Assembly (NCBI GenBank): GCA_964019415.1
Contig: OZ025873.1
Location: 2,792,982-2,856,981 of the forward strand
Direction: 5' to 3'
Length of the DNA stretch: 64,000 bases
Source: Ianthella basta
Taxonomy: Eukaryota; Porifera; Demospongiae; Verongiida; Ianthellidae
Numbering within the stretch: position 1 is the stretch's first letter; each line of letters begins with the position of its first letter. The notes beneath the pieces were generated by a model. It was not told the origin of the DNA. It was given only the letters and a program-made list of their open reading frames with translations, and did no database searches. Positions 21,767 to 64,000 of the stretch are shown here, piece by piece. The position numbers and the translations under genes were made by a program.

Positions 21767-21861
21767 GGTTTGTCCTAGTAAGCACACATTAAGAGAAGAA
21801 GGCATTGTGACATGGTGGCACATGGACAGGAATGCTTAACATAATCCATAAGAAATAGATG

Positions 21862-25237: not shown

Positions 25238-25313
25238 ATGGGGTTAGGTGCTAAGGCACTTGTTGCCTTCTTTGTCAGCCTTCTTCTGGCCAGCACAGCT
25301 GTTGCAGATGATG
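25238..25313 (+). other. Exon 1 of plus gene: signal peptide
   Basis: The ATG at 25238 opens 25 codons plus one base and ends at a consensus donor, GTAAGT at 25314. The peptide has a short basic start, a hydrophobic core (VAFFVSLLLAS) and an A-V-A cleavage site before DD. A splice acceptor (TTGCAG ending at 25227) lies ten bases before the ATG, so the exon probably begins at 25228 with a 5'UTR intron upstream. The one-base overhang needs a partner exon that starts with two bases, which is what 26386 provides. Confidence 0.75.
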
Positions 25314-28300
25314 GTAAGTATTGAGCTGTATGGTTTAAGTCTCCTCATTTTGATGTCCTCATACCATGTCAGTACTTGTACCAAGGCAATTGCTTCTACC
25401 ATGCATCTTTCACTTGCCACAGACTGACTTACAGCATATCTGTACAGTAATGTAATGTAAAGCTTCACTTTCATCCATGTGACATGTACGTAGCTTACAT
25501 GCAATAGAGTAATGCAATTTTATGCATACACATGTGCTTGTATTTATCTGTTGTACTGTTTCTATGGCAACCATTTTGTGTGGCCCTATCCTTATGAATA
25601 TGTTAGCTTTAATGTGTAGCGCTTGAATTTCGCAAAAGCTGCAAAGCGCTTGCACATGTTTCCAACCATGTTTGGTTGAAGCTGTCAAATTATGTATGTT
25701 ACTTATGTTATTAGTACCGTAGCTTTGTTTTGTTTTCTATGCGGGGCAGCTTGCAGGTATGTGCATACATTCCGACACAAATATACGTACAACAGATATG
25801 CAGAATCTGTGTAGATGATGCAGCAATGTTTAGTGCTTGCTGTGTGGCTCTTGAACACTCTTACATATGCGTATGTCCCTTGTGGTGGGTACAGGCGTAC
25901 ATGGCCCGGTCTTACGTACTAGCATCTGAAACAATGCTGTACCTGTCGTCTGGCCTTCCTGCCTGGAGTTCTATCAATTACAGTACATTTTCACTGTAGA
26001 AAATTATGCACAATGCATTGGTGCACCTGGTTATGTACAGATCACTGAAGCTTGTTGGAACGCACACTAGCCCTTAGTTTGTCAAGCTACGTAATTACTT
26101 TTTTTGTCTAGCTCAGTGACCTTGGTCATGACAATTCTTCTTTAGTAGATCTCTCCCAGAGATGCAGAATTCCAATCATGAAAAGACTTTTGCATTCCTC
26201 TTTGAATAGTATTGAAATTGTAAGGTAGATAATATAGATTATTTATATGGGTGCCATTACTTGTGTTTATGTATTTGATCATGGCTTGTCTGGCAGTTTA
26301 ATCATATTGCACGGCTGTGTGTATAAGGTGAGGTTGTTACATCAATTTTAGTTTGACATGTATTTATGTAGTATGTATTATTTAGCTCTGGCTATGTCCA
26401 CTGTAGAATCGGAGCCAACCTTGGTGGAATGGAGCATCATCATGGAGGAGGGCCAACTGGTTATGACCTTCACTGAGCTTGATCCACAACTTACGGTAAG
26501 GTGTAACAGGATCAAGGTAAGTGGAAGCAAAGACGACGAAACCGGACACGTACTTGATGATACCCCTTCGGTGCAGCTAGGAAATGAAATCGCTTGCCTG
26601 CTCAGTCGATACGATCAGAAGAAACTGAAAGACGATCCTAGCATTAATCCCGAAGTAGGTGACGCCTTTTTAGCCATTGATTCTGGTAGTGGAATACGTT
26701 TCCAATCAAAAGAATTCGTTACTGATGCATGGGTCCAAGTGGCGCTTCCAAAGGCAGAAGTTGATGCAAGTGATTTGCAACAACTTGGTATGCACAGGAA
26801 TCGTTTGCGACGTGCGACCGCAATTGAAGTGAGTGATTTTGTATTGTTCGATTTGGATTCAGGGGTAGTTACTATTGTGTTTTCAGAAGCCATTGATCCA
26901 GCAAGTGTGGACTTGACGGACATAACATTCCAGAATGACTTCAGCAATCCAAGTACTAACTACACCTTACAATCCACAACCTGCAGCAACTGTGTGAACC
27001 CCATGAACACTAGCATTTTGAATTTCACGATTACAACAGATGACCTCAATGCCATCAAAACCATCCCTAACCTCTGCTCTGAAAACACTAACTGTGTTCC
27101 AACTCACACAGCAGGTTTACTGAGAGGAAGCAATGGAACAGCTGTTGAGCCATACAACCCAGCTAACACAGGCCTCTATGGTAGCTTTGATTTCACACCA
27201 GATACTACCAGCCCCATCTTGAACAGCTTCACCCTGGATCTTTCTACTGAGCAACTTGTCCTCACTTTTGATGAGCCTGTGAATGATGGAAGCTTTATGG
27301 CAGGTAACTTCTTGCTGCAGAATGACACCTCAGGCTCAGAGTCGGTGAGCCTCATGGGTGCAACTGCTACCAGCTCTGGCACTCAGGTCAACATATCACT
27401 TGGGAGCGCTGCCAGCAGAGTAAAAATGAATGCCTTCCTCGGTACTAACATCAACAACACATACCTGAGCCTGGCAATGGGTTCTATTGCTGATGTGTCA
27501 GACAACTTAATTGAGGTTACCACTCTGCGAGCATCTGATGTGGTTGCTGACACTGTTCCTCCTGAAGTTGCCCGCTTTGTGCTAAGTTTGGATACCAATG
27601 AGGTTATTCTGACCTTCTCAGAGCCAATCAGTGCAGACACACTCAATGTATCTCTCTTCAGCCTCAGCAGTGACGGCACACTGCTTGACCTATCCCTGGA
27701 TGGTTCCACACTCAATCCATCAATGGGTGTTGTACTCTCCCTTGCAATGTCTCTTTCTCCAGCAGCCATCACTAGCCTGAAGACAAATGACACCATTGGA
27801 ACCAACACAAGTAACACTTTCCTTGTGATATCCCCGGATGCCTTTGTTGATAGCAGTGCTGTTGGCAATATGATGATATCACTGGCTGCTGCTGATGTAG
27901 TTGTGGACACCAGCTTGGCAATGCTTGTCAGCTGGTCCATTGATTTGGATGCAGCAGTTATTCAGCTAACATTTAATGATGTTGTCAGGACTGGCCCTCG
28001 CTTTCCCATTGGCATATCTCTCAGTGAGGATGGCTTGAATGAAGACTATACCCTCACTAACAGCACTGTCATGCCTCCAACTGTGGAATCAGCAGTACAA
28101 GAAGTGATGCTCTCAGAATTCGATCTGTTGTCTATCAAGGCTTTGATTGATGACGGACTTGTTTCTGGATTAAATTCCTCATACATTTTGATCCAAGCTG
28201 CAACCTTTATAGATCTGAGAGGTCAGGCTATCATCGCAGTGACAGTCATTGATCCCAGTCAAGCTGATGTATATGCTCCAGACACAGTGTCACCCACTCT

Positions 28301-31300
28301 GTCCAACTTCACTTTGGACTTGAATCTGGGCATACTGCATCTCACATTTGATGAGCCCATGCACCCAATGAGATTTAACTTTAGTGCGTTCACTCTACAG
28401 TCAGATTCAACTAACATGTCCATGTCAGTGACACTTACAGGAGGCATGCCAATGACCATGGATGGTTTTCAAAGAGAGTGGGCAGTGCCTCTACTTGTCA
28501 GTGATCTGAACGCTCTGAAGGACATCACCAGCCTGGCTACAAGTTTGAGTAATACTTTCCTCACTATTTCAGCTGGTGGAGCATACGATACATCCAACAA
28601 TGCCATCCAGGAAGTTGTTGCTATGCCTGCTACTGATTTCTCTCCAGATATATCTCCTCCTCGTCTGAGTTCTTTCACACTGGATCTCAATTTGGGCACT
28701 TTGAGTCTGACATTTGATGAAACTGTTTTGCTGAGTTCCTTCTTGTTCGAACTCAACATTACCAATGATGCAATGACTCCAACCTCATTTGTTACCCCCA
28801 CACAGACTGCAGCCGCCACCAGGCCAGAGTTCAATGTGATCATGTCAAGGCTTAGTCTCCAGACACAAATACAACTGAAGGAGGATACTAACTTGGCAAC
28901 CATGAGTGGGAACACATTCATCTTGGCTCCCAATCTTATTGTTTCAGACACAGCAATGAATTCTTATGTGGACAATGGGATGGCTATATCTGGAGATTTG
29001 GTGGAGGATATAACACGTCCTCTACTAACTGCGTTCACCGTGAACCTCACTGATGACAGTCTACGCTTCACATTTGATGAGCCTCTGAATATCTCTGAGA
29101 CCGACCTCTCCAGTTTTACTCTGCACAACGATTCCAGCACTTCTACACTCATTGCTAATGTGTCGGCCATGAGAGCATTGGAGCAGCGCTGCCTGGAGTT
29201 CGGTGACAATTGTGTCCTCCTCGTTTACTATTCCGCTGATGTGTCTAGAGCTCTCAGATTCACACCTGGTTTTGGAACTGATTCCACTAACACCTACTTG
29301 AGATATGAGGACAACGCTGTGATTGACAACAATGAGAATGGTATACTGGGTAATAGTATCGCTGTTGCTAATGTGGTTGAAGACATGTCAGGTCCAGAAC
29401 TTGACAGCTTCGATTTGGACATGAACACTGGCATCCTTACTTTGAGGTACCCTGAGGATGTGAATGTGACTGTGTTTGACCCTACCTCAATCACTCTGCA
29501 ATCATCATCAAATGGCACAGGTGCACAGGTTACTCTCACAGGAGGAATGCTAGTGAATGCCACAAACCTTGCAGACACTGTCTATGTCCGTATTGATGAT
29601 GCTGACCTCAACAACATCAAGGCCCAGGTCTCACTGGCCACTAATGCCAACAATACCTTTCTCTCACTTCAATCCATGGTCTTGATTGATGCATATGGGA
29701 ATGAGGTGGTTGAGATCCCCACCACTAATGCAGTGATGGTGACCAACTTCACTGAAGACACAACTGCTCCTCAGCTCATTGACTTTGAGCTCCGGCCTGG
29801 CCCAAACAAGTCACTAATTGTGGCTGTTGTCTATGATGAAACTGTCATGGCATCCACTGTCAACCCGATGGCCTTTACCTTGTATTCCTCCAATGACAGC
29901 ACTTCAGGGGTTGCCATTGATGGCTCTGTTGCAACAACAGACTCTGATGTGATTGAAATCACTGTACTAAGCAACGTATTGCAAGAAATTAGGGACAACT
30001 TTCCCTTAGGAGCAAATGTAAGCTTCGCCTTTCTGGAAGCTGCAAACACCTCTGCCCTGGACATGGTGGGATTAGCTGCTCCTGCTTCTGGTCGTATACA
30101 AGCTGGGAACATATCTGCTGATCTGATTCCCCCAGATATCACTGACTTCACCTTGGACCTGGACATGGGTACAGTGATCATCACATTCAATGACAACATT
30201 GATGCACTCACATTCAACACATCTGGTATTGTTCTGCAATCAGCTAGATCTTCAGCAGGATCCTCCCTACGCCTTACAGGAGATGATGGAATAGAAGCAG
30301 TTGCTAATGTGCTGACTATCACTCTGTCACAGGATGACCTTGATGCGATAAAATTGGACCCCCTCCTGGCTGTTAGTGACACCACAGTCTTCTTGGCTGC
30401 CGCTGACATTGGCATTGAAGACACATCAGGCAACATGGCAAGAGAAATCAGTGTGAATAACTCTCTCTTGGGCACTCTCATCCCTGATACCACTCAGCCC
30501 AATTTACTGATGTTTGATCTGGATCTGAATGCAAATCTCCTGCACCTGACCTTTGACGAACCTGTAGATGCTGGTACCTACAATGGCATTGGTGTGTTTT
30601 TGGCTAACAGTGCTGGCATTAATCCAACTGAAGCAGTGCTAACTGATTCTATGCCACTGGACCCAACCGCAAATGGAAGAAGACAGGTAATTCAGTTGAT
30701 GCCAGGAGATATTGAAAGGATAGCTAACAGCCGTACTGTGGCTAGGTCTAATTCCTCAACATTTGTCTACATCTTTAACAATGGCATCAGAGACCTTTCT
30801 GGGAATCCTGTCTTCCTTGTTCAGCCCATTGTTGCTATTCCTGTGACTGTGTTCACTCCAGATGAGACACCCCCAACCGTCACACGGTTTACCCTTGATC
30901 TTGATTCTGGTCAATATACCGTGGCCTTTTCAGAGTTTGTAACTCATCTGGTATCGATTGGAAGTGTTTTCACTCTTCTGAACTCAAATGTCTCTGCAAC
31001 ACAGACTTTCCCTCTGGCTACCGGGCTAGGTAGTTTCAGTGGTGGATCAAGAACCAGGAATCTGGGTGCTGATTCCAACATGCTGAAGCAACTGGGTCTG
31101 TGCTTGCAAAATGATGGAAATTGCTTTGTGGCTATCAATGCCAGCATTGTCCAAGACTTTACTGGTAGAGCGAATGCAGAGGTACCTCCATCCAATCCCC
31201 TTCCTGTCACTGTTAACCCAGACATTACTAGTCCTACACTTACAGACTTCTTTCTGTTTGACTTGATGGAGGGCTACTTTGAGATTGGCTTCAATGAAAT

Positions 31301-34300
31301 TGTGAATGCCTCCACCTTCAATGGGAGTTATGTACTGTTCCAGTCTTTGAATGAAGCAAATCCATTTCGATCTGTTCCTCTGACAGGTGCAGTTGTGGAT
31401 GAAGGGCTAGTAACTCGTGTGCGGGTGAATCTTACAACTGAGGACTTGAGTAGCATCAAAGCAGAGGCCTATGTGTGCTCCAGGAGGTACCAATGCTACA
31501 TTGCAGTACAGGCTGGGGCTATACTGGATGTTAGTGGCAACCCTTCGAGAAGTGTATCAGGAGTTAATGCCATCATTGCAGCTGATTTCACACTGGACCA
31601 GACAGGACCAGTTTTGGAGAACTACACCCTGGATCTGAACAGTGGTGTTGTAACTCTAACGTTCAGTGAAGCAGTCAATCCAGTTTCACTGGATGCAACT
31701 GCTGCCACCTTCCAGTCCCAGCTTACCTTTGACTCCTCCATCACTCTGACTGTGAATCTCACAGGAGGAAACCCAAATCCTGACGTTAGCAGTGAGCTCA
31801 TGCTTTTCTTGAATGATGCTGACCTAGACAGTTTGAAAGTTACTGATAATCTTGCTACCAGCCTTGGAAACACTTTCCTGTCCTTCACATCATCCTTTGT
31901 TTCTGACACTGCACATGAGGATCCTGGACCAAATGCAGTTCAGCCCATTCTCTCAAACTCTGCGCTTCAGGCAACCACTTTTCTGAATGACACTACTCCT
32001 CCTCAACTGAGTGAATTCCAGTTGGACCTGACACAGGAAACTCTGATCCTGACCTTTGATGAGCCAATAAGGATTTCCTCCCTCCAGAATATAAGCTTCT
32101 TTACCATCTTCTCTGCCAATTTGAGCACCTCAGAGGCTCAGCCATTGACAGGTGGTACAGTATTGAGTGATTTGGTTGGCAGCAGGGTGGTCCCCATTCA
32201 ATTGACTACAAATGATATACAGGACCTCAAATTAAATGAATTGATTGGAACAGGAGCAGACAACACTTTCCTGTCCCTTGCAGATGGTGCCGTTAGTGAC
32301 ATGAGTGGCAATGTCAATAACGAAATTGTTCGTGTCCAAGCCTCGCAATTTGTCCCAGATAGCTCTCGCCCAATGCTTCTGAACTATACTCTCAACCATA
32401 TATCAGGTGAATTACAGCTGTTGTTTGATGATGTTATCAATGTCGGCTCATTTCAGCCCTCAGCCTTTCGCCTACAGACCAACATCCGTAGATTGGTGAG
32501 TGATGATGCAACTTTCTACACTCTGCAATCATCCACCGTTCTCAGCAGCAACAACAGTCATAATGTGACAGTCCAGCTCTCTGATGAGGACTGGTTTGAA
32601 ATCAAGAGGCGCACAGTACTGGCAAGAGATGTGTCCACCACTTGGCTCACAATGCAGGCCTTTGCCTTTGATGACGTGGAAGGGGTTGATGTTCTTGCTA
32701 TCACGGATGGTAAAGCACTGCAAGCATCTGAGGTAGTGCCTGACGATGTGCCACCAAATGTGAGGTACTTTGATATTGACATGGCTAATGGAATTCTCAA
32801 TATCACATTTGATGATTTCATTAATGAAATGACTGTGATCCTCATGAGGATATACATCCAGAATAGTGCCCCAGCTGCCCCACCTGAAGCCCGAGTGCAA
32901 CTCACTGGAGGTGAGGTGCTAGTAGGAGAGAACAAGTACACTGTTACTATCCTCCTCAACAAGACTGATCTTAACAGCATCCAGCTGCGAGAAGACCTTG
33001 CTACATCAGAGAATGACACTTTCCTCTCTGTTGACAGTGGAGCAGCACAGGATTATGATCGGAATGAACTGATTGGAATTGGTGACACTGTGGCAATCAT
33101 GGTTCGTAATTTCATCAATGATTCAACACCTGTTGCACTTGAGAGTTTCAGCCTGGACCTAAATTCTGGCATCTTGTCCCTGACAGTCAGTGAGATTGTC
33201 CGTGTTTCTACCCTTGACCTTACAGCTATCACCATTCAAGGAGAACAAAATGTAACCTTGCCAAGTCCAACACTGGCCTACACACTGACAGGCAACATGA
33301 GTGTCATTACTGATTCCATTGACCCGAGCATCATCAACATCACACTTTCTTTAGCAGACTTGAATGCCATTAAGAGTCTTCGTAATGTTGCTAGTAGGAG
33401 AGGCAACACCTTCCTCTCCCTAGGAAGTACCTTTGTGGAGGATCAAAGTGGAAATCCCACAGTGACAATCTCCAACATGTTTGCTCAGCGTACCTCTGTA
33501 TATGTGCGAGATGAAACTGATCCAGTGCTGGAGAGCTTCACATTGGATCTCAATAGTGGGTTTGTGGCTTTGTCTTTCAATGAGGCAGTTGATCCTACCA
33601 CTTTTGAACCCAGTGTTGTTCAACTATCTATCGGTCAGTCATTCTTGACATACTTACCATACAATCTCACTGGGGGAAGCTTCTCAGAAGAACCGACTTT
33701 CTCACTGATTGTAAATCTTACAGAGTCTGATCTGAATGCTGTTAAAACAATCATTGGTGAGGCTACACCACCACTTTTCCCTGGTCGGGAGGTTCTTGTG
33801 AACCTGCCAGTTGGCTATATTGATGACATGGCAGCAAATCCAGCTCCAGCACAGATATCTTTGCCAGCTAATTTTGTTCCAGATACCAGTCCTCCAATGT
33901 TAGAAGCCTTCACACTTGACCTGGACTCTGGGAACCTCATCCTTACCTTCTCTGAAATTGTCCAAGGAAACACTCTCATGCTTGCCTCTTTCACACTTCT
34001 AAACCAGGCTGATGAAGGCTCTGCCACTGCAAGAACCAATTTTCCGCACACTGTTGCCGCTGACAACGGCCCTATTCAGAATATCACCTTGGATAAAGAT
34101 GATTTCACTGCTATCCAGCTTCTTAGGGACCTTGGAACAACTTCTATGAACACATTTTTGATATTTGCTAACAACTCTGTTAGGGATGCTGCAGAAAATG
34201 GAATAGTTGAAATTGATACTGGGATTCAAGGGACTGTCGTTGCTGATGAAACCAGACCTTATTTGGAGGACTTTGATTTGGATTTGGGTACAGGTATCAT

Positions 34301-37300
34301 CACCTTGGTCTTCTCTGAAGCAGTTGTATCATCTATCTTTGATGTGAGCTTGATCACCATTCTTGGTGCAGCCAATGAGTCCAGCAGCTCGTACACACTC
34401 ACCAGTGGTAGCATGGTGATTGGTGGAGACAACCACACCATTGACATTCAGCTAAGCATAACTGACTCCAATTCCCTTAAGGTTGACAACATGCTTGCCA
34501 CCTCCGACAACGACACCTTCGTTTCCTTTACAATGTTACTCACACGTGATGTGGTTGATAACCCAATAGTAGAGTTGCCAGCACATGCAGCCAAGCAGGT
34601 GCGGACATTCACTCCTGACACGGTTGGTCCCATGCTAACCAACTTCACCTTAGATGTCAATCGCGGTCTGCTTCTGCTTACCTTTGATGAAGTCGTAAAT
34701 GACACTTCCCTCAACCTTGCCATTGCCTCTGTCCTCCAGGCTCCCTCCTCCTCTGTTCGGAGGCAGCTAACAAATGACAGCAACCAGGTACAACTTGACA
34801 CAGATTTGATTGTGGTGACAGCTGCTTTGGCACCCAATGACATTGACTACATCAAAGTCCTGGATCTTGGCTTAGACCCAAACAACACCTACCTCTCTGT
34901 AGCAACTGGTGTCATCCAGGACATCTTTGGTAACCCTGCTGAACCAATTCCCGAAAGTTCAGCCATTGGAGCTGATAATGTCATTGATGATGTAACCCGT
35001 CCCACTCTCACCACCTTTGACTTTGATATGGATTCAGGAACAATCATACTATCATTTGATGAAGCTATAGATTACGAACGTGAATTTACCATCTCGAACT
35101 TTGAGTGGCTGAACGATGTAATGAATACTGGGAATAGAACCACAATTGAAGATAGTGAAGCAAGAGTTTTCATTGATGAGTTGAATGACCCCTTGCCACG
35201 GCGCAACATCTACATCTTTATGAACAACACTGAACTCAATGTTTTCAAGCAGCAGTTTATCTGCCATGACAACTCAACTTGTTTCACTACATTCCCTGCG
35301 ACAGCTGCTGCTGACTATGCTGGGAATAGTGTCAGTCCAAGGCTAGTCCTTCTTGAAGGTGGTCCTCTGGTTGTGAATGATATTACTCGAGACACCACTG
35401 GACCTAAACTGATTGAATTCACTCACTTTGATCTTGATTCAGGTCTGGTTACCCTCAGTTTCACAGAAACTGTGAACATTGCATCTGTCAACTTTTCATT
35501 TGGTTCCCTTGCTAATCGCTTTAATGATGCAAGTGATATTGCCATCATTCCTTTGACAAGAGGTACCCCTCTGAATGCAGACAATGAGGATTTCCTTCAC
35601 TTCCAGCTAGCAGATGCAGATGTATTCAGCATCAAATCTGTGACCACTGTCTGTAGAAATGACCTTCGCTGTTGGTTTCGACTGACCAATATGTTCTTGG
35701 TTGACATGTTTGGGAATGAGATTGACTCTCACCAGGCCATCGGCTTCAATGAATCTTTCCATGCCAGAAACTATTCTGATGATGTCACCATGCCAGAATT
35801 GCTGAGTTACAACTTGGACATGGACACTGGTCGCATTAGCCTCACCTTTAACGAACCCGTGGACCACACCACACTGCAACCTAGTGAGCTGACTCTGCAG
35901 AACCAAGAAGTTGGCACTGCATTTATCACCCTTGAACTTGGAGGTACCAGAATAACCCAGAACTTCTCAGATGTTATGGAGGTGATTGTTGAGCCCCGAG
36001 ATCTGATTACTCTGAAAGCAGAGAGGAGAGTTGCGACCTTGATGTCAAATACCTTCCTCAGTTTCTCCAGTCTCTTGATCACTGATACTGCTGAGATTGT
36101 TGGTGGAACTGGAAATCCTGTTGTTGCACGCAATATCTCAAATGGAGTGCAGGTCTCAGTCTTCACCAACGACACCACTCCACCTCTCCTGCAGGAGTTC
36201 AGCTTGCTGGACGTAGATGAGGGTCTGTTGAGGTTCTCCTTTGACGAACCTGTTGCCAACGAAACTTTCAACCCATCTGGGTTCTATCTTCAGTCGATGC
36301 TTGCAGGTGGCTCCAACCTCACTCTCTCAGGAGGACAGCTGACATATGTTGCAGGAACAGAGTTGACACAAGTGGAAGTTGCTCTTAATGCTGATGATCT
36401 GCGTGACCTTAAGCTGACCAGAGACCTTGGCACAAGGAGATCTGACAGCTTTGCTTTCATTGATAGTACAGCCATTGCTGATGTATCTGGGGTCATGGTA
36501 GAGGCTGTAAGCTCCTTGATGGCTCTTCCGGTGGACTCCTACTTGGGAGATGAGACCAACCCAAACCTCCTCAACTTCACCCTTGACTTAAACACTGGAG
36601 AGCTTTCCTTGACTTTTGATGATGTGATGGATGGTGGGAGCCTGGATGTGCGGGATATAGCCTTCCAAAGTCTTAACAATGACAGTTCCATTCAGTATGT
36701 CTTGACGGAACCCTCCACCGGGTCTTTGGGCGATGGCTATGTCATTGCATTCAATCTGACAATTCGGGACTTGAATGGGCTGAAAGCCATTCGTGATCTT
36801 GCCAACTCAGTCAGTGATACCTTCATCACCATGTCTGCCACCGCAATTGTGGATGTAGCCAACCTGCAGGTGATCTCAGTGACGGATGTACGTGCACTAC
36901 AAGCAGCCTCTGTGGCACCTGACACCACAAGACCTGAACTGCGGATGTTCACCTTTAACCTTGCTAATGGGGCTATGATTCTTTCTTTTTCAGAGGCAAT
37001 TGAGCCAACTACAATCATGGTAGATCAAATTGCTCTGCAGAACACGTCTAACAGCTCTGCTGACCCTACAGTTTCCTACACACTACAGTCTTTTACCATC
37101 AACACCGATGTTCCCTCTAGTGAAATCACCTTCATCCTCAGTCAACAGGACATAAACACCATCAAGGCCTTGGCTACTTTAGGCACTAATGAGAATGACA
37201 CCTACCTCACTTTCACGGACACTGCCTTTTCTGATGCTTTTGGTACTGAGATAGTGCCCATTTCTGATGATGATGCCTTCAAAGCCTCTCCTTTTCTACC

Positions 37301-52300: not shown

Positions 52301-55300
52301 CTTGCCACAAGTCTCAATTACCTTGCCAATGAATCTTTTGAATGACATCAAGCGAGTTACCTTGTGCAGAGATAACAGTACCTGCTACATCACGTTTTTG
52401 GCAAGCATAGTCCAGGATGTCTTTGGATTTGACAATACTGCACGCACTAGTGCTGACGCAGCTATGGTGGTGAACTTTGTACCTGATAGGACCTCTCCCA
52501 GTTACAGCACTGTAGACCTCTTTGATCTGGACAGTGGAGTGCTTAACATATCCTTTGACGAACCACTGAATGAAGCCAGTTTCAACTTCTCTCAGCTTTA
52601 TGTACAAGACACTGTGACTGAAGGACCTACAACAGTTATGGTCAGCCTTGAAAACTCCACCATTGTTGATCTGGTTGATGGGCGGTACTCCTTCCAGCTC
52701 ACTGAGGAGATCATCACTGCCATCAAGAGGGAACAGACGCTATGCACTCGACAAGTAGACTGCTTTGTACGATTTGCAGCTGGCTTTGTAATGGATGTGT
52801 TTGACAACATGGTGACACCTCTTGATGATTCAGCATTGTTCAACTCACTGCCTGTGATGTTTGTTAATGACATGAGGGACCCTAACACTACTGGTTTCTC
52901 TATAGACCTGAATGCAGGACGGTTGACTCTATTTTTTGATGAAGTAGTGGAGGCTAACACGTTCCGTCCCACTGAAGTTACTTTTGTACCTTCTGTGAAT
53001 GCCAGTGTGTCAGAGGGGGTTACCTTGACAACCACAAATGTGATTACTAATGAAATAACAGATGAGGTCATTATCACACTCTCGGACATTGATGTACAAG
53101 CAATCCAGGCCAACTTGGATCTGGGCACCACCAGAGAGAACACGTTCCTCCTCTTTTCTTCAGACATGATAAGGGATGCTGCTGGCCGCTCGGTGATACC
53201 TCGTCTAGAGGGAGATGCACTACCAGTTACCGACTTCATCCGTGATAATGTTCCGCCCACTCTTTTGCAGTTTTCAGCTATCAACCTCAATTCTGGCACC
53301 ATCTCTCTCTCATTTTCAGAGCCCATGCTGGAAACTGTTGTGGATGCTATGAGGGTTGAACTCTCTTCAGAGCAAAGTGGAGGCACTGTGCTGAACCTAA
53401 CATCCTTCTCCAATGTCACTGGTCAGCAGTCAAGGACTCTTTTGGTTCTGTCTATTAGTGAAGAGGACTTAAGGGAGATCCAGAGGAGATCTGATTTAGC
53501 ATTTGACCAGCAGTCCACATTTGTCAAGGTGTACCAAGGTGCTTTCTTTGATGTTGCAAACAATCCTGTGGATGAAAGTGCGCGTTTGCCTGCACCTGCC
53601 TACATTCCAGACACCACTCCTCCTGTGCTGCTCAACTACACACTGGACTTGAACCAAGGTGTCATATTGTTCACATTTAGTGAAGTTGTGCGTGACACCA
53701 CTTTGATGGCAGCAGAACTCACCATATTCAACTCCAATGCAACAGTTGTATCCTCAACAGAGATGCTCCAACTGAGTGGGGGTGTCATTCAGAATGGCCC
53801 AAGCCACACACCAGAGCTGAGGCTGGATGAATTTGATCTCAACTTACTAAAATCTCTGGACCAACTAGCCACCACAGTGGATGACACTTTCATATCGTTT
53901 TCGAGCTTGTTCATCCGAGATATGGCCCAGCCTGGCATCCAAGTGATAGCTGTGACACGACAACAAGCTGGTGGGTACATTGATGATATCATTGGGCCAT
54001 CCCTACTCTCCTACACCTTCAACCTCTCCAGTGGGGTTGTTGTTCTAGTCTTCTCAGAATATGTTAACAGCAGCAGCTTCCAGCCAACGCAGATCACCAT
54101 ACAGAACTCTGACAACTTGCTGGACCCAGGCTTTGATCGTCTTACTCTTACAGGTGGATCCCTGCTTCCGGCTTCCTCCTTGCAAGAGATTGTCCTCCAG
54201 TTGGTACCGGAGGACATTGATCACCTTCGCAGCACAATGGGAATTGCCGAAGTACTGAGCAACACCTTCCTTTCAGCCACAGAGAATCTTGTTACTGATG
54301 GTGCTGGTAACCTTTTCCAAGCCATTCCAGCTATTTCTGCAAGAAGAGCATCTAATTTCACTCTGGATACTACCCCACCATCTCTTGTGTCCTTCAGTTT
54401 TGACCTAAACAAAGGTGTTCTTGTACTGACCTTCAATGAAGCTGTAGTGGAAGACTCTTTCCAGCCCACCCGCATTCTCCTCACAAGCCCTGCAGGTAGT
54501 TTGTATATGGTACAAGACGCAACATCTGAGCCAGTAGATATCACCACCATTCGAGTTCAGTTGAGTCAGTTGGACTTGAATGAGATCAAAGCTGACACTG
54601 AACTGGCTCTGTCTAATGACACCACTGGAATATTGCCACAGTATGACCTCATCAGGGACAATAGCAACAATTCACTCTTAACTTCATCCATTGCTGTCTA
54701 TGCAAGCACCTATGTCGGTGACTCTGAAAGACCTCTGTTACTAGGGTTTGTGCTGGATTTGACTGCAAGAGCACTTCTACTTACCTTCAATGAGACCATT
54801 GATGCTAGAAATATAACCTTCTCTGAAATCTTTATCCAGAACAGGGCAGAGGGTGGCGGAGACAGGATATCAATTGACACCAGCTTTACCAACTCGCCAA
54901 ATGCCCCAGAAATCATGATCACCTTTTCCTTGCAAGTTATAAGTGCCATAAAAGCTAATGTAGTGCTAGGCACTGAAGTGGACAACACCTTTCTTTCTTT
55001 CTCAGAAACTGCATTCCGTGATCCCTCAGGCAATCCAATTATTCCTGTTTCATCAAGAAATGCCTTCAGGGCATCAAACCACACTGCAGACTCAGCCCCT
55101 CCAGTACTGCTAGCATACACAGTGGACCCAAATGATGACACTTTGACTCTTACCTTTGATGAAGTTGTTGATGCTACCTCATTCAACTTCTCCCAGTTCA
55201 CGCTGTTCTCTGCAGATGATGTCAATGCTACTGAATACACTTTGAATGGAGGCACTGTCTCTGCTGTTAATGACTCTGTAGTGACAATCACATTTGATTT

Positions 55301-58300
55301 TGATGACATCAATGCCTTGAAGAGTGATCCCACTATTCTGATATCTGATGAAACCACTTTCCTCATGCTGGGATCAGGTGCAGTGGCTGACACTAATGGA
55401 AACATCTTTGTGGGTACGCCAAGGATCCAAGGGACTTACATTCCTGATACTACTCCTCCAGAGCTCATACGATTTGATGTCCTGATGCAAGGAGGAACAG
55501 AGCCTCTGGAGATTGTTCTGCACTTCTCAGAAGCAGTTGCTGCTGATGTCCTTACAAGTACTTTGCAACGAATCAGGCTGCAAAGGTCAACAGTTTCTGA
55601 TGCAAGCACTGATGTTACACTCAGTGGTGGATTTGTGGATGTAGGCAACATGGTCGACATTACCATCACGGTGGATGCAAACGACTTAGCAGACATGCGC
55701 AGCAGACCTCCCCTCTGTCAGAGTAATGCTACCTGCTACCTCGATGTTAGTAGCTCACTTGTGTCTGATACTAGTGGTCAGCCAATGCAAGTCCCCATCA
55801 CTCCTCTCAGCCCCAGCCTGTTCACCGCTGATTTGGTTAGGCCTCGGCTTCTTCGATTCTCATTGAACGTTGACAATGGCTTGCTCAACCTCACCTTTAG
55901 TGAAGCAGTGAATGGAAGCACACTGAATCCATCAGGCCTGTTCCTACAAGGAGCTGTAAACAACAACACCTTCTCACAGCAGCTAGTAAACAGCACGGTG
56001 GAGACGTTGACAGTGTCTGACGAGATATCTGTCATCGTCAGTGCACAGGTACTGGACACAATGAAGGTGTTACCAGAACTTGCATCCAGTCCAAGTACCA
56101 CTTTCCTGTCCCTTGATGCTGCTTCAACTGCCCTGAGAGACATTGCAAACAACTTGGTTGATGATGTGCCATCTACCAGTGCTGTTATGGTTACAACATA
56201 CATTTCAGACATGGTACCTCCCACTTTGGTATCCTTCAGTGTGAATATGAATGATGGCACTGTTGACTTTGAGTTTAATGAAGCTGTGGACATAAACATC
56301 ACTATACCTTCACGCATCACCTTTACAAATGCAGATGGATCCTCCTCCTACACACTGACTGGGGGCAGCAGCAACCAGCTGTTTGCCTCTTCCTTCACCT
56401 GGGAATTCACTGCTGAAGACCACAACCAGCTGAAAGCACGTTCAGACCTTGCCACTGATAGAACAAACACCTTTCTCACACTGCAACAAGGTGCATTCTC
56501 TGATGCTGCAGGAAACCCCATTGCCCCATTATCTAGGGTCCCTGCAACTGGGTTTATCAAGGACGTTGGCCGGCCAATACTTCTGACATTTGACATGAAC
56601 ATTGATCAGTCCATCCTTGTGTTTCATTTTGATGAAACTGTCAATGTGTCATCTTTGATGGTATCAGAGATTTCCCTTAGTGATGGAAGTGGTGTAAGCT
56701 ATGCACTGAACACAAGTGTCTCTAACCAAGGGCCAAGTCCAGATGTCACTGTGTCCATCTCATTTGATGACTTGAATATTCTAAAAGCAAGACGAATCTG
56801 CCTTACCAACATCACTTGTTTCCTGACCTTCAGTGATGCCCTAATTGAGGACATGGTCAATGCCACTGTCATTCCACGGTCACTTGTCCCTGTTGACATG
56901 TACACAGCAGACCTTTCCTCACCTCAACTGGCTGCATTCATGGAAATAAACCTGATACAAGGAACTATTACACTAGAATTCTCTGAAACTATCGATTCAT
57001 CAACATTCAATCCAACAGGTCTTAGACTGCAGTCTTTGTTTGTAAGGGAGCAGTTCACTAGTGAACTGAACATCACCAATGGCACACTACTCACTGGAGA
57101 TAGCACCACAGTCAGGTTCGAGTTGTCGCCTACTGATTTCACTGCTCTTCGTGACAACCCAGAACTCTGTGACAGACGTGCTCACTGCTACATTGTTGCT
57201 GATTCTTTCACTGTTCAAGATGTATCAGGGCTTGATCTTAGCCCTGTACAAGAAGTGTCACCAGGATTCATTGCACAAGCCTTCATCTATGATTTCCTCA
57301 TGCCAGAGCTGTTGCACTTCGACCTGGACATGAACATTGGCCTCCTGACTCTGGAGTTTTCAGAACCAATGTCAGTGGACTCTTTCCAATATGAAGGCAT
57401 TACACTTCTCTCGTCTGTCAATGCTACAGCTGAGGAGAGATTCACTCTGGTTACAATGGATGTGTTCACAAACAGCACCAACGGGAACATGCTAGTCACT
57501 ATCTACATTCTACCTCCATCCTTGAATGACCTGAAAGCACGCAATGTGGCTAGTGCAAGGAACAATACATACTTGAGCATCCTTTCCACTGCTGCAACAG
57601 ATGCTGCTGTTGAGCCAAATCAGGTGTTGAGTATACTGCCATCGTCACCTCAGGCTGTGAGGGCCTACACTGGGGACAGTACACCACCACAGCTTGTCCG
57701 CTTTATGGTGGATCTGAATGACAACTCAATTACGTTCAGTTTTGATGAACCAGTTCTGCCTAGTTCTGTTCTCGTGAATCAAATAGTCATCTCCAACTCG
57801 TCCATTGACCCATCTTTCAATCACTCCCTCACAGGAGGTGTGGTTCGAGAGAGAAACATGGCCACCTCCACTACCATCACTATTGATTTGCTACGAGATG
57901 ACATCCAGGCTCTTAAGAGCATGGTAGGTTTTGCAGGCAATGAGAATGAAACATACGTTGGCTTCAGCATGGGAACATTTGAGGATACCAGTGGCAACCG
58001 AATCAACCCACTGTTTGGACACCAGGCCTTCCTCCTCACACCTGACTCCACTCGAGTGATGCTGCTCGGCTTCTCTGTGAACATTGATGATGCGACACTA
58101 ACCCTAACCTTTGATGATACCGTTCAGAGTTCTTCATTAGATGCCAGTGCAATTGCTTTGCTGAATGGTGTGTCTGCCTCAGAAGATAACACTGTGCGAC
58201 TGTCTAAACTGACCCGGAGCAACAGTTCAGATGGATTCGAGACCACTGCTTATATCCATTCTTCTGACCTCCTCAAAATCAAATCTGCGGAGAATGTTGC

Positions 58301-61300
58301 CAATGAACTGAATGACACCTACATCACTTTCCAGGCCTTTGGCATCCAGGACACAAATGGTTTGAATGTTTTGGCTGTCACCAACGGTAGTGCCATCCAA
58401 GCAAACAGCTATGTTGGTGACTCCTCTCCTCCATCTCTGATCAGTTTTGATCTGGATCTTAACAGTGGCTCTGTTAGACTCACTTTCAATGATTTCGTGG
58501 ACGTCTCAACATTTATCCCATCTGCTGTGACATTGCACTCATCATCTGTGGCTGGACTCCCGTTCACCTTGGCTACTGATGGTGTTACACGATCAGTTGA
58601 TGGATTTTCCCTTGAAGTACAGCTTACATCTGATCTCCTTGACTCCATTAAAGGGGAACCTGCACTAGGGAATTCTTCAGCAAATACATTTGTGTCAATG
58701 GAAGCAGGAGCAGTAAAGGATCTGGCTGGAAACAATGTGACTGCCCTCTCTACTCGCTTGCCTGCAAGTAGTGTAGTTCCTGATGCCTCTCCACCTGAGA
58801 TTGTGGCCTTTGAATTGGATCTGAATGAAGGAATTATCACATTCAACTTCTCTGAGATTGTGCAGGTCTCTACTTTGGACTTGCAAGGATTTTCTCTGCA
58901 GCCAAGGATTGACTCATCCCGAGTGCCAGGTCAGATACTGACTTTCAATCCTGGAACAGTTCTTGAGGTATGCTCTGCTGTCACTGCCATGTAGTATATG
59001 CTGCAAGATGCATGTTCCCTGATTTTTGCATTGTGTACATACATGTGTCAGCATACTGCACATGATTTGAAACTGAGTTTCTACTTACAAGCTTATCAGA
59101 ACACATACTGTACAAAGGACTAAGTGGTTAGAGGAAGTACGTATCCTCATAGAGACCTAAGCATTCCATATTTGCCTGTGGTGATAGCGTCTTTGTGTAA
59201 TATGCCAGACATGGCCATCTGTTGAGATTGGGTGCTTTCTCATGACAAATAATGATTCAGGAAGGAAGTGACACAGTAATATGTATTAGTGCACAACAGC
59301 AACAAATCTGAAAGATGAGCTTCCCTAGTTGATTTTGTTTTTATTATGGACATGGCAGTGTTTATCCTTGTAGATACGTATTTCTGTCTCTGTATGCAGT
59401 ATTTCCAATTCTTGAGGGTTTGTGTGTGCATGTTTGCCCATAATTTTGGGCATATTTTCTGGTTATACGTAAAAGCCTACAGTACTTTTGGGTTGGTTGT
59501 CCTAACCGGACATATGCCATCGGTTATCAGTTAGTGACCTGGTGACGTCATTATCGCTGCTACAAGTCTAGTTGAAGCAGCGGCGTTTGGAACACAGAAG
59601 ACTGGAATAAAGCGTATTCGAACGATTTAAGGCAAAGAACGGTGGGGATGTTTCTGTACCGAGAGGAAAACGCCTCCACGATAAGGGAACAGACAGCGCG
59701 GGGGCTAAACAGACTCGTACCGATCGCATGCAACGATTTTCTGTAACCTGCATTTCAGACCACTGAAAAAACTGTCAAATCACGACCAGTTGGTGTTTCA
59801 AGTCACCCGCCTTTACCACATACCCTGAATCTCCTGTACACCGTCCTCCTATGGAATTGGGTGTACTAAAGGTCACGTAAAAATGACATCACTAGGTTGA
59901 CAATTGATAACCAATAACCGATAGCAACCATCCGGTCAGGACAACCGACCCAAATAGTACTGTATCCTTAGAAGCTTGTGTATTTTGTGCCTTGTACAGT
60001 GATACATAGCTGTAAGAGTACACATACATCTTCTTTGTCCTCATTCAGGTATCTAACAGCAATGTTCTAAATGTTCAGTTCAGTGAAGAAGACCTCAATG
60101 CCATCTTTGCTATTTCCCAGCTGGCTCTAGAGGAGACATCCACATATTTGTCAGTGGTAAACACCAGTGTGCAGGACATTGCTGGGAACTACCTCACACC
60201 TATTGTAGTCACCAGAGGCCTCAGAGCTTTCAGAGTTATTCAGAACAGGAGGGTGCCTGAGTTGATGATGTTCAGCCTGGACATGGCAGTCGGACAGTTG
60301 AACCTGACTTTCTCTGAGACAGTTGTGAGAAGTTCTGTCCAGTTTGACCAAATCACCATCCAAAGCGACATGACCTCAGACAACATCTCTTACACCCTCA
60401 CAAGAGGCACTGTACTTGGCAACACGGAGTCACAGGTGCTTCAAATAGACCTTGACGCAGTGGACTTCTTTGCACTGCAAAAGACCTTGGATCTAGCCAC
60501 TAGCATGGACAACACCTTCCTCTCCATCACCAATCTCTCGGTACTAGATGCCCAGGGGCAAGGGGCAGACCCTGTACCTCCTAGCAATGCTCTACAAGTG
60601 AGCAGATTCATTGCAGATAATTTGCCTCCAATGCTCCAAGGTGCTCGCTTAGACCTAAACAGTGGACAGCTCTTCCTCACATTCAACGAGGTTGTCAGTG
60701 GCTCTTCCATGTCTGATCTCAGCAACATTATTCTGCAAAATAATGCAACCTCGCCATCTATTTCCCTACCAATTGAGGGAACAGTTCAAACTGACTTTGA
60801 TGCCACCCTAGTGATCCAGTTGTCCACAAGTTATCAGAACATGTACAAGAATGAAACTGAAATTGCTACAAGCCCGGCTAACACGTTTGTCTTTCTTCAA
60901 AGAATGACAGTGACAGATGTCAGTGGAATTGCCAACATTGAGTCCACCAGTGGGCTTCGTGTAGATCCAGTGGACCCAGATGAAAGTGGACCAGAACTGC
61001 TCAACTTTAGCCTTGACCTAAACATTGGAGAACTTCGGCTCACATTTGATGAGGTTGTCAATGCAAGTACCTATGAACCAACTTTCTTCACAGTTCAACG
61101 CAGCAATGTGAGTGCTGTAGGTGGCTCTGCTCTGCAGACCAGCTTCCCACCTGGCACCAACAATGATGTAATAGTGGTGACATTGACAGAAGCAGATCTC
61201 AATGAGCTAAAGTCTGATGTTTTGCTGGCAACATCTGCAGCAGACACATTTCTATCAGTCTTGCGAGGAGGCATCAGTGACATGTCAGGTAATCCTCTTG

Positions 61301-64000
61301 CTGCAGTGCCACCAACTTCAGCCCTACCAGTTATGCGTTACACTGCTGACACCAGCCCTCCCTCCTTGGAGTCCTTCGATTTAGACCTAAACTTTGGAAT
61401 CCTCTCACTGACTTTCAACGAGTATGTTCGAGACTTCACTCTAGACCTTACAGCCATCACCTTTGCAAACATGAGAGACCCTGCTACAGCTGCTACTGTG
61501 ACCCTCAGCGATATGGATACCATGGACAATAACATCATGCATCAAGTTGATGTGATCACTTTGCAACTTTCTGATGAAGATCTCAATGCATTGAAATCTG
61601 AAACAAGAGTGGCTGTGGCTACGAATACCACCCTGCTCTCTGCCACCAGCAGTTTGATTCAGGATGGAGCAGGAAATCCATTTGATTCTATCCCCATTAC
61701 ACGGGCCCGTTCTGTGAACATTTTGATGCCTGACACTACTGCACCAGTTCTGCAGACATTTGACTATGATGTAAATACTGGTGTGATAGTCTTCCATTTC
61801 AGCGAAAGCATTCTGTCAACTTCACTCCTCCTTCGTAGCATGATCCTGCAGGACAGTGCCTCAGGTGAGGGCCAGTTTCTACAGCTGGACAATGTGACTG
61901 TGCCTGAATCAAACCCAGCTGATGTCAGCGTACTACTGAGTAAGGAAAACCGGGATGAGTTGCAGAGACTAAGGATCTGCATTGCACGTACCAACTGTTT
62001 CCTGAGCTTTCCTAATGGAACCTTCACTGACACCAGTGATGTGCCTGGACCAGAGGTACCAAGAAACAATTCACTGATGGTTGATGAGCTGATAGTAGAT
62101 ATGACTGTCCCACAGCTGGACTCATTCCTGCTGTTTGACCTCGACTCTGGCATCCTCACCCTATTGTTTGATGAAACGATTCAAGTGGGTAGCATTGATC
62201 TCTCCAGCTTGGCTCTTCACCAGACAAACGATGACACACAAGGGTACTCGTTGACTTCTGGGTCAGTTCTAACCAACGATAGTACCATGGTGACCATCCA
62301 GATTTCTGACAGGGACTTGAATGAGATTAAGAAACGGGACATTTGCCGCTCACGAGGACTCTGCTGGGTGAGGCTTTCATCAACATTTGTGCTTGATGTC
62401 ACCGGAAACATGCTTGATCCTATTGTGCCAAGATCTGATGTGTCTCTAACAGAAAGGGCTGATAGATTTGTGGAAGATATCACCAGTCCCAATCTCATTT
62501 CATATGACCTGGATATGAACCAAGGCAGGGTAACTCTGAGGTTTGATGAACCAGTGAATTTCTTCTCAGTGGACCCTACTCAACTGACCTTCAGCAGTAA
62601 CCGCACAGAAGGCTCATCCTATCAGCTGACTGGAGGAGATCGTGTGACTGCTGGGAATGATGTTGAGTTTGTGTTTGACCTTATTAGCAATGATCTCACT
62701 CTGCTGAAGGCAGCTACAGATTTGGTGATTTCAAGAGCAACCACCTACCTCAACTACACGGCAAGCTTGGCAGTGGATCTCTCTACTCTGCGCAACCAAG
62801 TGAATATTTCAGACCTTGAAGAAGGCCTGCTGCAGGTGACAAGCTACACAGCAGACATGGTTAATCCTGAATTAGTGGACTTTACCAGGCTGGACATGAA
62901 CACAGGAAGAATCCAGTTAGAGTTCAGTGAGCCAGTTGAAATCAGCTCTTTCACACCATCCTCTGTCCAGCTCCAATCTGCTGCTGATGACAATGCAATG
63001 GGCACAGAAACATTTACACTAACTGGTGGTGTACCCAGCTATCTCAGTGATGAGAAGACTAGAGTGGAAGTAGTGTTCAGCATGTTGGATTTGCAGGACA
63101 TAAAGCTCATGGCCAACCTGGCCCGCCAAGAGTCTACCAGCTTTATTTCATTTTCAAGCAGTGCCCTCACTGACACAGCTTCTAACCCTATTCGCTCTGT
63201 TTCTGCCTCATCAGCTGCAGGCGTCAGTATATACATCACAGACAGCACTGGCCCACAGCTAACAGACTTCACCCTTGACATGAATAGTGGTATGCTGACA
63301 TTGTTCTTCAACGACATTGTGGATAGTGGTCTCATTACATACGAGCAGATCACATTGCGAGCCAACCGTGATCCTTCTGACACCATCAACCAATACACCC
63401 TCACTGGTGGTACTACCCCCAGCAGTGATGGGTATGTGGTGGTTGTTCAACTGACTAACACTGACCTGAATGCCATCAAGAGGATCACTGGTCTTGCCAC
63501 AGAACAAAACAACACTTTCCTAGCCATCACAGCCCAGGTAATACGTGATGTTTTTATGAATCCGGTGATGTCTGTCATTCCAGAAAACAGTGTGCCTGCT
63601 GCCAACTTTACTGAGGACATTACTCCACCTGTGCTGGACAACTTCTTCTTAGACATTGATCAGGAGGTGATCACTTTCTCCTTCAGTGAAACTATCAATG
63701 TTTCATCTTTCCAGGTGGATTCCATTACCCTGCAGAGCACCATGACAGGTGGTGTTTCGTATATGCTCACCAATGGCACACTAGTACCTGAGGATGCTGC
63801 TGATGTGGTAGAACTGTCTCTTACCACAGCTGAAATCAATGCAATCAAACTTATTCCAGGCCTGGGCACAGATGCTACTAATACATACATCTCTTTCCCC
63901 AATGGAACAGTCAATGACATGTTTGACAACCCCATAGATGCAATCTTGTCTACTAATGCAAAGATGGCCAGCAACTTTACACCAGATGTCACACGACCAG
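25238..64000 (+). CDS. Giant secreted Ig-like repeat protein, plus-strand gene (C-terminus outside window)
   Basis: Spliced model: exon 1 25238-25313, exon 2 26386-58967, exon 3 60049 to the right edge; together 12,203 codons plus one base. Exon 1 encodes a signal peptide (MGLGAKALVAFF, then VSLLLASTAVA, cut before DD). Introns are phase 1 and phase 0, and both junctions keep the frame inside recognisable protein. The mature protein is 98 full ~125-residue Ig-like units (numbered 0 to 97 here) plus the start of another, with nothing else visible. Units differ strongly between neighbours but match every 23 units. Cysteines are rare and come mostly in close pairs. N-glycosylation sequons are abundant, often NNT or NDT just before F/Y-L. 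The conserved Asp residues in LDL, D-x-x-GN and the linker could bind calcium, which is inference. The visible part alone would exceed 1.3 MDa. No named gene is recognised. A long extracellular fibre for adhesion or matrix is the best guess. Confidence 0.9.
25314..26385 (+). other. Intron 1 of plus gene (phase 1)
   Basis: The donor is GTAAGT and the acceptor TTATTTAG ends at 26385. Joining G (25313) to CT (26386) makes an Ala codon and gives ...VADD-A-LAMSTVESEPTL..., leading straight into the first Ig-like unit. A stop at 26349-26351 prevents the large frame from extending further left. The other nearby AGs (26350-26351 and 26370-26371) have the wrong phase for exon 1. The 1,072 bases hold no element or gene that I can see. 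Confidence 0.75.
26826..35402 (+). repeat. 23-unit super-repeat, copy 1 (units 1-23)
   Basis: Begins at the first unit with the one-residue-longer F-x-x-F-D-L-D-S-G strand. Markers: insertion-type unit 9 starting at 29769; paired-cysteine units 12 (31101-31124) and 13 (31476-31496); an LTMQAFAFDD-type unit 16 (ATG of MQAF at 32652); paired-cysteine unit 23 (35262-35282). Length 8,577 nt (2,859 codons). It is preceded by signal-proximal unit 0 (26386-26825), which corresponds to the last unit of the later copies. Confidence 0.85.
35403..43901 (+). repeat. 23-unit super-repeat, copy 2 (units 24-46)
   Basis: The same marker order recurs: FTHFDLDSG and C-x5-C in unit 24 (cysteines 35652 and 35670); a longer first strand in unit 26; insertion-type unit 32 starting at 38424; paired-cysteine units 35 (39762, 39780) and 36 (40128, 40146); the TMQAFAIDD unit 39 (41277); paired-cysteine unit 46 (43770, 43788). 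Length 8,499 nt (2,833 codons). Confidence 0.85.
43902..52496 (+). repeat. 23-unit super-repeat, copy 3 (units 47-69)
   Basis: The same order: FVEFDLNQG and C-x5-C in unit 47 (44154, 44172); longer first strand in unit 49; insertion-type unit 55 starting at 46929; paired-cysteine units 58 (48270, 48288) and 59 (48633, 48651); the TMQAFAIDD unit 62 (49782); paired-cysteine unit 69 (52365, 52383). Length 8,595 nt (2,865 codons). Confidence 0.85.
48633..48653 (+). other. Cysteine-bounded RGD loop in unit 59
   Basis: The codons read C-T-H-R-G-D-C. RGD is the classic integrin-binding tripeptide, and a loop closed by a disulfide is a favourable way to present it. The equivalent loops in units 13, 36 and 82 are CSRRYQC, CSNRLSC and CDRRAHC, while the matching minus-gene loop is CAHRGNC. 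The motif may therefore be a chance form of a generally basic loop. Integrin binding is inference only. Confidence 0.5.
58968..60048 (+). other. Intron 2 of plus gene (phase 0), carries a MITE
   Basis: The donor is GAG/GTATGC and the acceptor TTTGTCCTCATTCAG ends at 60048. The join ...FNPGTVLE-VSNSNVLNVQFSEEDLNAIF... restores a normal unit (unit 87) between its LTGG-equivalent strand and its DLNAIK motif. Of the 1,081 bases, 483 (59480-59962) are a terminal-inverted-repeat element. The rest is plain AT-rich DNA. No other unit in the window has an intron at this place. Confidence 0.9.
59480..59962. mobile_element. Non-autonomous Tc1/mariner-type MITE in intron 2
   Basis: The element begins CAGTACTTTTGGGTTGGTTG and its last bases are the reverse complement of CAGTACTATTTGGGTCGGTT, so both ends begin CAGTA and are flanked by TA (59478-59479 and 59963-59964). 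This is the usual target duplication of Tc1/mariner elements. The inverted repeats match for about 75-90 bases with scattered differences. The interior is richer in CpG than the surrounding intron and encodes no transposase. A full TGACGTCA palindrome lies at 59543-59550 inside the left arm. Confidence 0.8.
60049..64000 (+). other. Exon 3 of plus gene (runs off the window)
   Basis: The exon is open in the frame set by the splice and ends the window inside a D-V-T-R-P linker. It completes unit 87, encodes units 88 to 97 in full and reaches the first residue of unit 98. Units 92 and 93 carry the recurring C-x5-C pair (cysteine codons at 61978 and 61996; 62344 and 62362), so the 23-unit order continues across the intron. 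Confidence 0.88.
62110..64000 (+). repeat. 23-unit super-repeat, copy 5 (start only, units 93-97)
   Basis: Unit 93 opens with FLLFDLDSG and carries C-x5-C (62344, 62362), as units 1, 24, 47 and 70 do. Unit 95 has the longer first strand (FTRLDMNTG), as in units 26, 49 and 72. The window ends before the remaining markers could appear. Confidence 0.8.

Follow-up and report, generated by a model that had tools for sequence, protein, structure and literature searches.

A 23-unit higher-order repeat with two related five-unit cassettes per block in a predicted secreted Ig-like array of Ianthella basta

In a 64,000-nucleotide stretch of Ianthella basta DNA (hereafter the window), a plus-strand gene carries a 23-unit higher-order repeat in at least four full copies, which lies mostly in one 32.6-kb exon. 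Within each block, two five-unit cassettes that are related to each other stand 11 and 12 units apart. A paralog on the minus strand has these cassettes too, in unchanged order and at different spacings, and the block copies are old. Higher-order repeats in coding DNA are generally recognised by DNA similarity, whereas this one is readable in the protein alone. The two divergently transcribed paralogs are predicted, from fold and secretion predictions, to encode giant secreted fibres of tandem Ig-like beads of ~124 residues. The explanation that we favour, with somewhat better than even confidence, is ancient block duplication mostly within one exon, followed by selection that held the marker cassettes, in a secreted Ig-like fibre with interaction sites. 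Coordinates are collected in Table 1.

Table 1. Coordinates of the two arrays, their blocks, cassettes and predicted exons within the window
Feature	Coordinates	Strand	Basis or details
Paralog array, divergently oriented; 7274 codons and 58 counted units, frame still open where window ends	2..21823	-	ORF, HMM units
Third, weaker paralog cassette, insertion in first unit	4175..6229	-	score 5.5; next best elsewhere 2.83
Paralog cassette B, m24-m28	11075..12919	-	score 13.1
Class-9-like unit m21, three units ahead of cassette B as in plus array	13673..14053	-	with u9, u55, 89/81
Paralog cassette A, m0-m4 (m0 = half unit)	19997..21730	-	score 9.4
First coding exon (predicted) of plus gene, encodes signal peptide MGLGAKALVAFFVSLLLASTAVADD; donor GTAAGT	25238..25313	+	in-phase splice to 26386, stop-free
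Coding exon of 32,582 bp holding degenerate unit 0, units 1-86 and start of unit 87	26386..58967	+	open frame; acceptor TTTAG, donor GTATGC
Block 1, units 1-23	26826..35402	+	2859 codons
Cassette B, units 12-16	30873..32747	+	score 14.0, cross-score to A 6.4
Cassette A, units 23-27	35001..36926	+	score 9.9, cross-score to B 7.9
Block 2, units 24-46	35403..43901	+	2833 codons
Cassette B, units 35-39	39528..41372	+	score 14.9, cross-score to A 4.4
Cassette A, units 46-50	43536..45422	+	score 9.1, cross-score to B 3.6
Block 3, units 47-69	43902..52496	+	2865 codons
Cassette B, units 58-62	48042..49877	+	score 16.8, cross-score to A 5.1
Cassette A, units 69-73	52125..53990	+	score 8.1, cross-score to B 4.6
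Block 4, units 70-92, contains the 1,081-bp intron	52497..62109	+	2844 codons
Cassette B, units 81-85	56574..58424	+	score 14.9, cross-score to A 6.8
Second intron, phase 0, 1,081 bp, interrupts unit 87	58968..60048	+	GTATGC...TTCATTCAG; frame and unit resume at 60049
Next exon: remainder of unit 87 through unit 97, leaves window	60049..64000	+	open frame, unit tiling
Cassette A, units 92-96	61744..63621	+	score 8.9, cross-score to B 4.5
Block 5, units 93-97 (its first five)	62110..63990	+	unit tiling

The predicted signal exon of the plus gene (25238-25313) is separated by a 1,072-bp first intron from the exon starting at 26386, and the joined frame of the signal exon and both later exons is stop-free. 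Secretion is predicted from this splicing together with the signal-peptide character of MGLGAKALVAFFVSLLLASTAVADD, which was judged by eye; the bead fold likewise comes from prediction. On the other strand, the neighbouring ORF continues without a stop for 21.8 kb or more. The observed/expected CpG ratio is 0.26 and 0.27 in the two coding arrays, 0.55 between the genes and 0.62 in the second intron, and such CpG-poor coding DNA with introns of ~1 kb would presumably fit an invertebrate animal with gene-body methylation.

An iterated HMM gave 98 matches that tile the plus protein and 60 that tile the minus ORF. The plus matches comprise one degenerate unit 0, which was excluded from every offset test, and 97 clear units (1-97), whose length averages 124.0 residues (sd 4.0, range 111-134, 96 units measured) and varies with class, that is, with position in the block (p = 0.008). 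A structure predicted for one unit reached a pLDDT of 96.8, and one for three units a pLDDT of 95.3 with a pTM of 0.85; the alignment for the latter took in 93 of 144 windows. The nearest folds to the one-unit model include bacterial Ig-like domains (TM 0.54-0.58, all with E > 0.001), among the fold matches being the S-layer protein SbsC (TM 0.57, E = 0.009) and the thermostable esterase 3doh (TM 0.54, E = 0.0014). Profile A1 was built on 58 of the 158 HMM matches. Big_5 matches 11 of the 58 scanned units, weakly and below its cut-off of 23.6 bits (best E = 0.0045; 17.8 bits for a 2000-residue stretch and 16.9 for the first unit). Big_5 and SbsC, both bacterial Ig-like, are the nearest matches by profile and fold, although the former stays below its cut-off in the stretch and the unit scored in bits and no fold match reaches E = 0.001, and the domain family of the plus array is not named by Pfam above cut-off in the 58 units scanned. 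Neither Ig-set nor FnIII is among the 19 Pfam families matched by these 58 of 158 units, and on that ground the titin family proper was rejected. A PDB sequence-profile search gave three weak matches (best E = 0.022, across 41 positions), and 17 weak NCBIfam families, each in one unit, were read as chance. The three-unit model also matched Chlamydomonas FMG1B (E = 5e-9), but this was not taken as kinship, as the match has a TM of 0.21 and stands amid many unrelated tandem Ig/FnIII structures. Across 12,028 plus-unit residues there are 250 N-x-S/T sequons and 103 lysines. Acidic residues are conserved at unit positions 21 (E/D), 97 (D) and 120 (D), a sequence pattern that suggests calcium between beads.

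The preliminary description had counted ~125-residue units in a register of 23, and both count and register hold: the class-1 units (1, 24, 47, 70 and 93) begin at 26826, 35403, 43902, 52497 and 62110, and the four full blocks have the codon lengths already given for them (Table 1). When all 97 plus units were compared against one another at offsets 1-89, with unit-level means subtracted, the proposed excess of similarity appeared at offset 23 (z = 12.85) and again at offsets 46 and 69 (z = 9.92 and 6.61); the next-best offset was 11 (z = 3.16), and the maximum over 300 permuted unit orders was 4.94. The best partner lies at a multiple of 23 for 38 of the 97 units (3.3 expected), and a multiple of 23 is the best offset in 14 of 15 sampled 11-unit stretches, with 58 narrowly above 23 in the first stretch. 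A quick tree of the 97 units also groups equal-position units and not neighbours, as had been anticipated, with same-class cherries at 11 of 37 (mean 1.27 and maximum 7 in 5000 shuffles) and neighbour cherries at 1 of 37. Class labels require 64 changes on this tree, compared with 82 and 85 for control labels by 22 and 24; block labels require 60, a figure which, having fewer states (5), is not comparable with that for class. Against the main reading, units 1-5 show no excess similarity to units 93-97 (mean -0.01); for each of the nine remaining block pairs there is an excess, of 1.03 to 2.4. No unit was seen to have been gained or lost since block copying.

The marker types recur largely as described. 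The longer first strand is present in all class-1 units, the insertion type in units 9, 32, 55 and 78, the QAF...VLAVTDGKA type in units 16, 39, 62 and 85 (less exactly in 85), and the second longer strand in units 26, 49, 72 and 95, with unit 3 lacking it. The C-x5-C pairs listed for units 12/13, 35/36, 58/59 and 81/82 are broadly borne out, except that unit 12 has C-x6-C; the earlier list omitted C-x5-C in units 23, 46, 69 and 92, and stray pairs occur in units 33, 52 and 78. The further claim that each position has kept its own identity is clear for the marker positions but fails for 10 of the 23, which are individually indistinguishable: positions 1-5, 9, 12-16, 18 and 23 singly reach p < 0.05, and positions 6, 7, 8, 10, 11, 17 and 19-22 fall short of it. 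Class memory is 5.0 sd in class 16, 4.1 sd in class 13 and none in class 19. The whole block was copied, and most beads have since nearly lost their class identity.

Plain units retain this memory as well. Offset 23 still gives z = 6.7 after classes 1, 3, 9, 12, 13 and 16 are dropped, and when the cassette classes and class 9 are all set aside, the twelve classes that remain give z = 4.1, with a same-class excess of permutation p = 0.0003 (76 pairs). We also built a more careful tree of 46 of the 155 units (34 plus, 12 minus), with a bootstrap that has not settled, in which classes 13, 15 and 16 are single groups and the class-15 and class-16 clades also include minus units. Five of the eight tested classes (1, 4, 9, 12 and 23) are not single groups, which counts against the main reading; the eight together need 12 changes, versus a shuffled mean of 24.6. 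These observations bear on the idea that independent beads became alike at regularly spaced functional sites with no duplication at all, an idea that would suit the concentration of signal in the marker classes. Since plain units by themselves show offset 23, since indels are shared (the class 9 insertion, and an extra residue common to classes 1 and 13), and since class clades contain nested paralog units, we regard such convergence as extremely improbable.

The copies themselves are old. Same-class pairs are 29.6% identical (158 pairs), versus 26.6% for other pairs, and four-fold codon sites at same-class identical residues agree in 674 of 2043 cases (33.0%), versus 31.4% expected from other pairs (overall p = 0.058, permuted unit order), meaning that these sites are almost saturated with a trace remaining. 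Together these values indicate that block copying was ancient and, because four-fold sites keep almost no memory of it, that the remaining position identity is old and probably held by selection. Class 16, for instance, is the most conserved at 38.5% protein identity but agrees at 36 of 122 four-fold sites (38.5 expected), and such identity without codon memory points to selection and not to recent copying. The plain classes 11 and 8, whose protein identity is not distinctive, behave differently: class 11 (units 11, 34, 57, 80) has codon agreement at 37 of 72 sites (23.0 expected; p = 0.025, corrected for 23 classes) and class 8 (units 8, 31, 54, 77) at 45 of 100 (corrected p = 0.079). Some plain units in class 11, and perhaps in class 8, may therefore have exchanged sequence later, which counts against the main reading. 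At the DNA level, self-comparison of the 64 kb (E = 1e-3) gave 22 matches, 19 of them coding, of 32-117 bases; three of the 19 join same-class units, all of class 16. TRF, with a longest period of 500, found no array of units. A satellite-type or recent coding higher-order repeat of the NBPF kind was rejected for want of high DNA identity between blocks.

The Cys pairs in classes 23/1 and 12/13 imply a recurrence every 11 or 12 units, and cross-class similarity is highest for class 1 with 13 and class 12 with 23. In the careful tree, whose bootstrap has not settled, a 98/95 clade unites class 16 with four of five class-4 units, m4 and m28, and an 89/81 clade unites class 13 with four of five class-1 units and three minus units. 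We found a five-unit cassette starting at plus units 12, 23, 35, 46, 58, 69, 81 and 92, in two forms, A (classes 23, 1, 2, 3, 4) and B (classes 12-16), with a spacing that alternates between 11 and 12 units at all eight sites. All remaining plus windows score at most 2.78, and all remaining windows of both arrays at most 2.83. Scores of cassettes on their own classes are partly circular, because classes are defined by position, but cross-scores are free of this circularity: the A sites score between 3.6 and 7.9 when matched to the B profile, and the B sites between 4.4 and 6.8 when matched to the A profile. Given the 4/16 and 1/13 clades and the top cross-class pairs 1/13 and 12/23, the 23-unit block reads as a doubled half-block of 11+12 units. 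Growth by copying ~8.5-kb blocks, as first proposed, stands as the best account of the period (14 of 15 stretches; signal kept in plain units), but the 23-unit block does not look like the primary unit. Two results count against the main reading here, namely that a modest half-period signal (z = 1.7 and 1.4) remains in the offset test once the Cys classes are left out, and that degenerate unit 0, which lies outside the cassette scan, resembles no class, including class 23.

The minus-strand paralog retains the cassettes in another arrangement. For the 97-unit offset analysis, minus fragments of 78, 62 and 17 residues were removed, and for later minus analyses the split m42/m43 was merged and the 17-residue m59 removed. 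Period 23 was not found in this array by the offset test, its best offset being 18 (z = 4.01; 95% shuffle level 3.94, shuffle maximum 4.62). Its cassettes follow the order of the plus array, with starts 24 and then 18 units apart; cassettes A and B are separated by 19 other units here as against 7 in the plus array, and cassette B and the next cassette by 13 as against 6, so the number of spacers is not fixed between the two paralogs. Units m21-m30 align ungapped to classes 9-18 (16.96 versus a maximum of 11.41 in 300 shuffles), and when gaps are allowed, the path that minus units take through the order of classes scores 33.1 (maximum 27.0 in 60 shuffles). On its own, m0-m4 scores 9.37, above the 95% shuffle level of 7.03 and below the shuffle maximum of 10.55, and the third cassette on its own falls below the 95% shuffle level. 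In the careful tree, m1 joins two class-1 units (93/80), m4 belongs to the 4/16 clade, and m21 groups with two of the four class-9 units; m25 lies in the 1/13 clade outside class 13, m27 inside class 15 (92/80), m28 inside the class-16 clade (97/84), and two members of the third cassette in the 1/13 and 15 clades. Counting against the main reading, m0 pairs with m3 (90/46) and m24 sits beside a class-4 unit (93/51), neither with the classes expected. Because the paralog has the same cassettes in the same order, the A and B cassette identities probably arose before the two genes separated. Plain units are more alike in the minus array (mean score 132) than in the plus array (102), as if the minus-array spacers were later-added. 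The minus array (21503-21823) starts as a half unit directly after a signal-peptide-like stretch, and the second intron of the plus gene cuts unit 87 at about the same point of the bead, which hints that the minus array start arose at an old mid-unit intron.

The same measurements can be read in two further ways. Block copying alone might have made the period of 23, with divergence ending unequal exchange and the cassettes having no special function; this would be in keeping with the class memory of plain units and with block codon lengths that are no tighter than random, and selection cannot be proved from one locus. This passive reading is possible but in our view unlikely, given how uneven class memory is from class to class, that several marker classes are kept in the paralog at different spacings, and that top protein identity without codon memory in class 16 suggests constraint. 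Alternatively, the number of units between cassettes could be selected to match a periodic partner, as proposed for the A-band of titin, with the paralogs having different pitches. The exact 11/12 alternation at eight of eight plus cassettes despite almost saturated codon sites would suit such a molecular ruler, as would the confident placement of neighbouring beads in the three-unit model. We consider it very doubtful, however, as spacing varies within the paralog, block residue length is no more constant than chance, and the partner is only hypothetical. A test for selection on block length itself failed, since codon lengths vary as in random unit order (P = 0.36), which leaves contour-length selection without support and also counts against the main reading.

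Within our preferred explanation of ancient block duplication and selected cassettes, an 11/12-unit block would have doubled into the 23-unit block, selection after copying would have kept the marker cassettes while most other beads drifted as spacers, and the register would have been kept because diverged copies ceased unequal recombination. As the least certain step, the cassettes might serve as periodic interaction or cross-linking sites on an adhesive or extracellular-matrix fibre, in a titin-like manner. Our readings of age and selection are based on one locus, as the prokaryote and viral collections searched gave no relative from another species. That docking cassettes sit at gene-specific pitches (~11.5 beads versus 18-24), set by insertion or copying of inert spacer beads, is a speculation that we think quite unlikely; if true, it would mean fibres with genetically encoded binding-site spacing, and extracellular rulers that evolved apart from muscle rulers. 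A register kept despite near-saturated codon sites, together with a paralog bearing the same markers at other spacings, makes the pair of arrays a natural test case for asking which beads are important in a giant modular protein and whether selection acts on their spacing.

Titin is intracellular and mixes Ig and FnIII domains, and its gene has many exons, whereas the units of the plus array all belong to one sequence family, its gene has a predicted signal peptide, and the greater part of its four blocks falls in a single exon. The repeats of nebulin are short modules that bind actin. With its excess at a fixed offset and its grouping of equal-position units in the tree, the plus array belongs to the titin/nebulin-like kind of super-repeat. 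Passages of PMC10665226 describe titin super-repeat domains that are alike at equal positions, recursive duplication, and conservation at two positions (1 and 7), and a passage of PMC5648799 describes thick filaments shortened by deletion of two C-zone super-repeats. The likeness to the titin A-band, as far as these passages describe it, lies in a giant beta-sandwich chain, equal-position resemblance, surface clusters conserved at few positions and zones of differing repeat length (PMC10665226, PMC5648799). For nebulin, the portion of PMC1553488 that we draw on presents multi-domain expansion as common and reports a copying unit of seven domains, revealed, as here, by autocorrelation of unit similarity at a fixed multi-domain offset; chicken nebulin has 44 exons with the same exon pattern per block of seven, whereas the plus array is mostly one exon. 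NBPF/Olduvai 3mers, in the corresponding part of PMC9584774, are tandem coding higher-order repeats at the DNA level, expanded in humans, whereas the plus array is almost invisible in DNA. The plus array departs from these super-repeats in its predicted secretion, in being built from one domain family, in its nested structure and in lying mostly within a single exon.

Searches for relatives covered viral contigs (with one unit, the class-16 alignment and a closer five-unit alignment), prokaryote genomes (with the latter two alignments) and phage and plasmid proteins, and none returned a relative; Foldseek against viral models gave no match at E <= 0.001. As the collections searched are of prokaryotes and viruses only, this absence says little for an animal-like gene. 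In the open PubMed Central subset, judged by search listings, nothing fits such a protein or exon.

Several minor features of the window were also observed. Rfam (gathering threshold) and tRNA searches of the 64 kb were empty. The coding exon at 26386-58967 runs uninterrupted for 32.6 kb, though the introns of the plus gene are ~1 kb. MITE-like palindromic inverted repeats lie at 21859-22007 and 24590-25026 between the genes and at 59478-59964 in the second intron, with arms that are 82%, 68% and 82% identical, respectively. Finally, the motif RNRLRR, which we take to be a furin-like site, occurs at 26796-26813, between degenerate unit 0 and unit 1.
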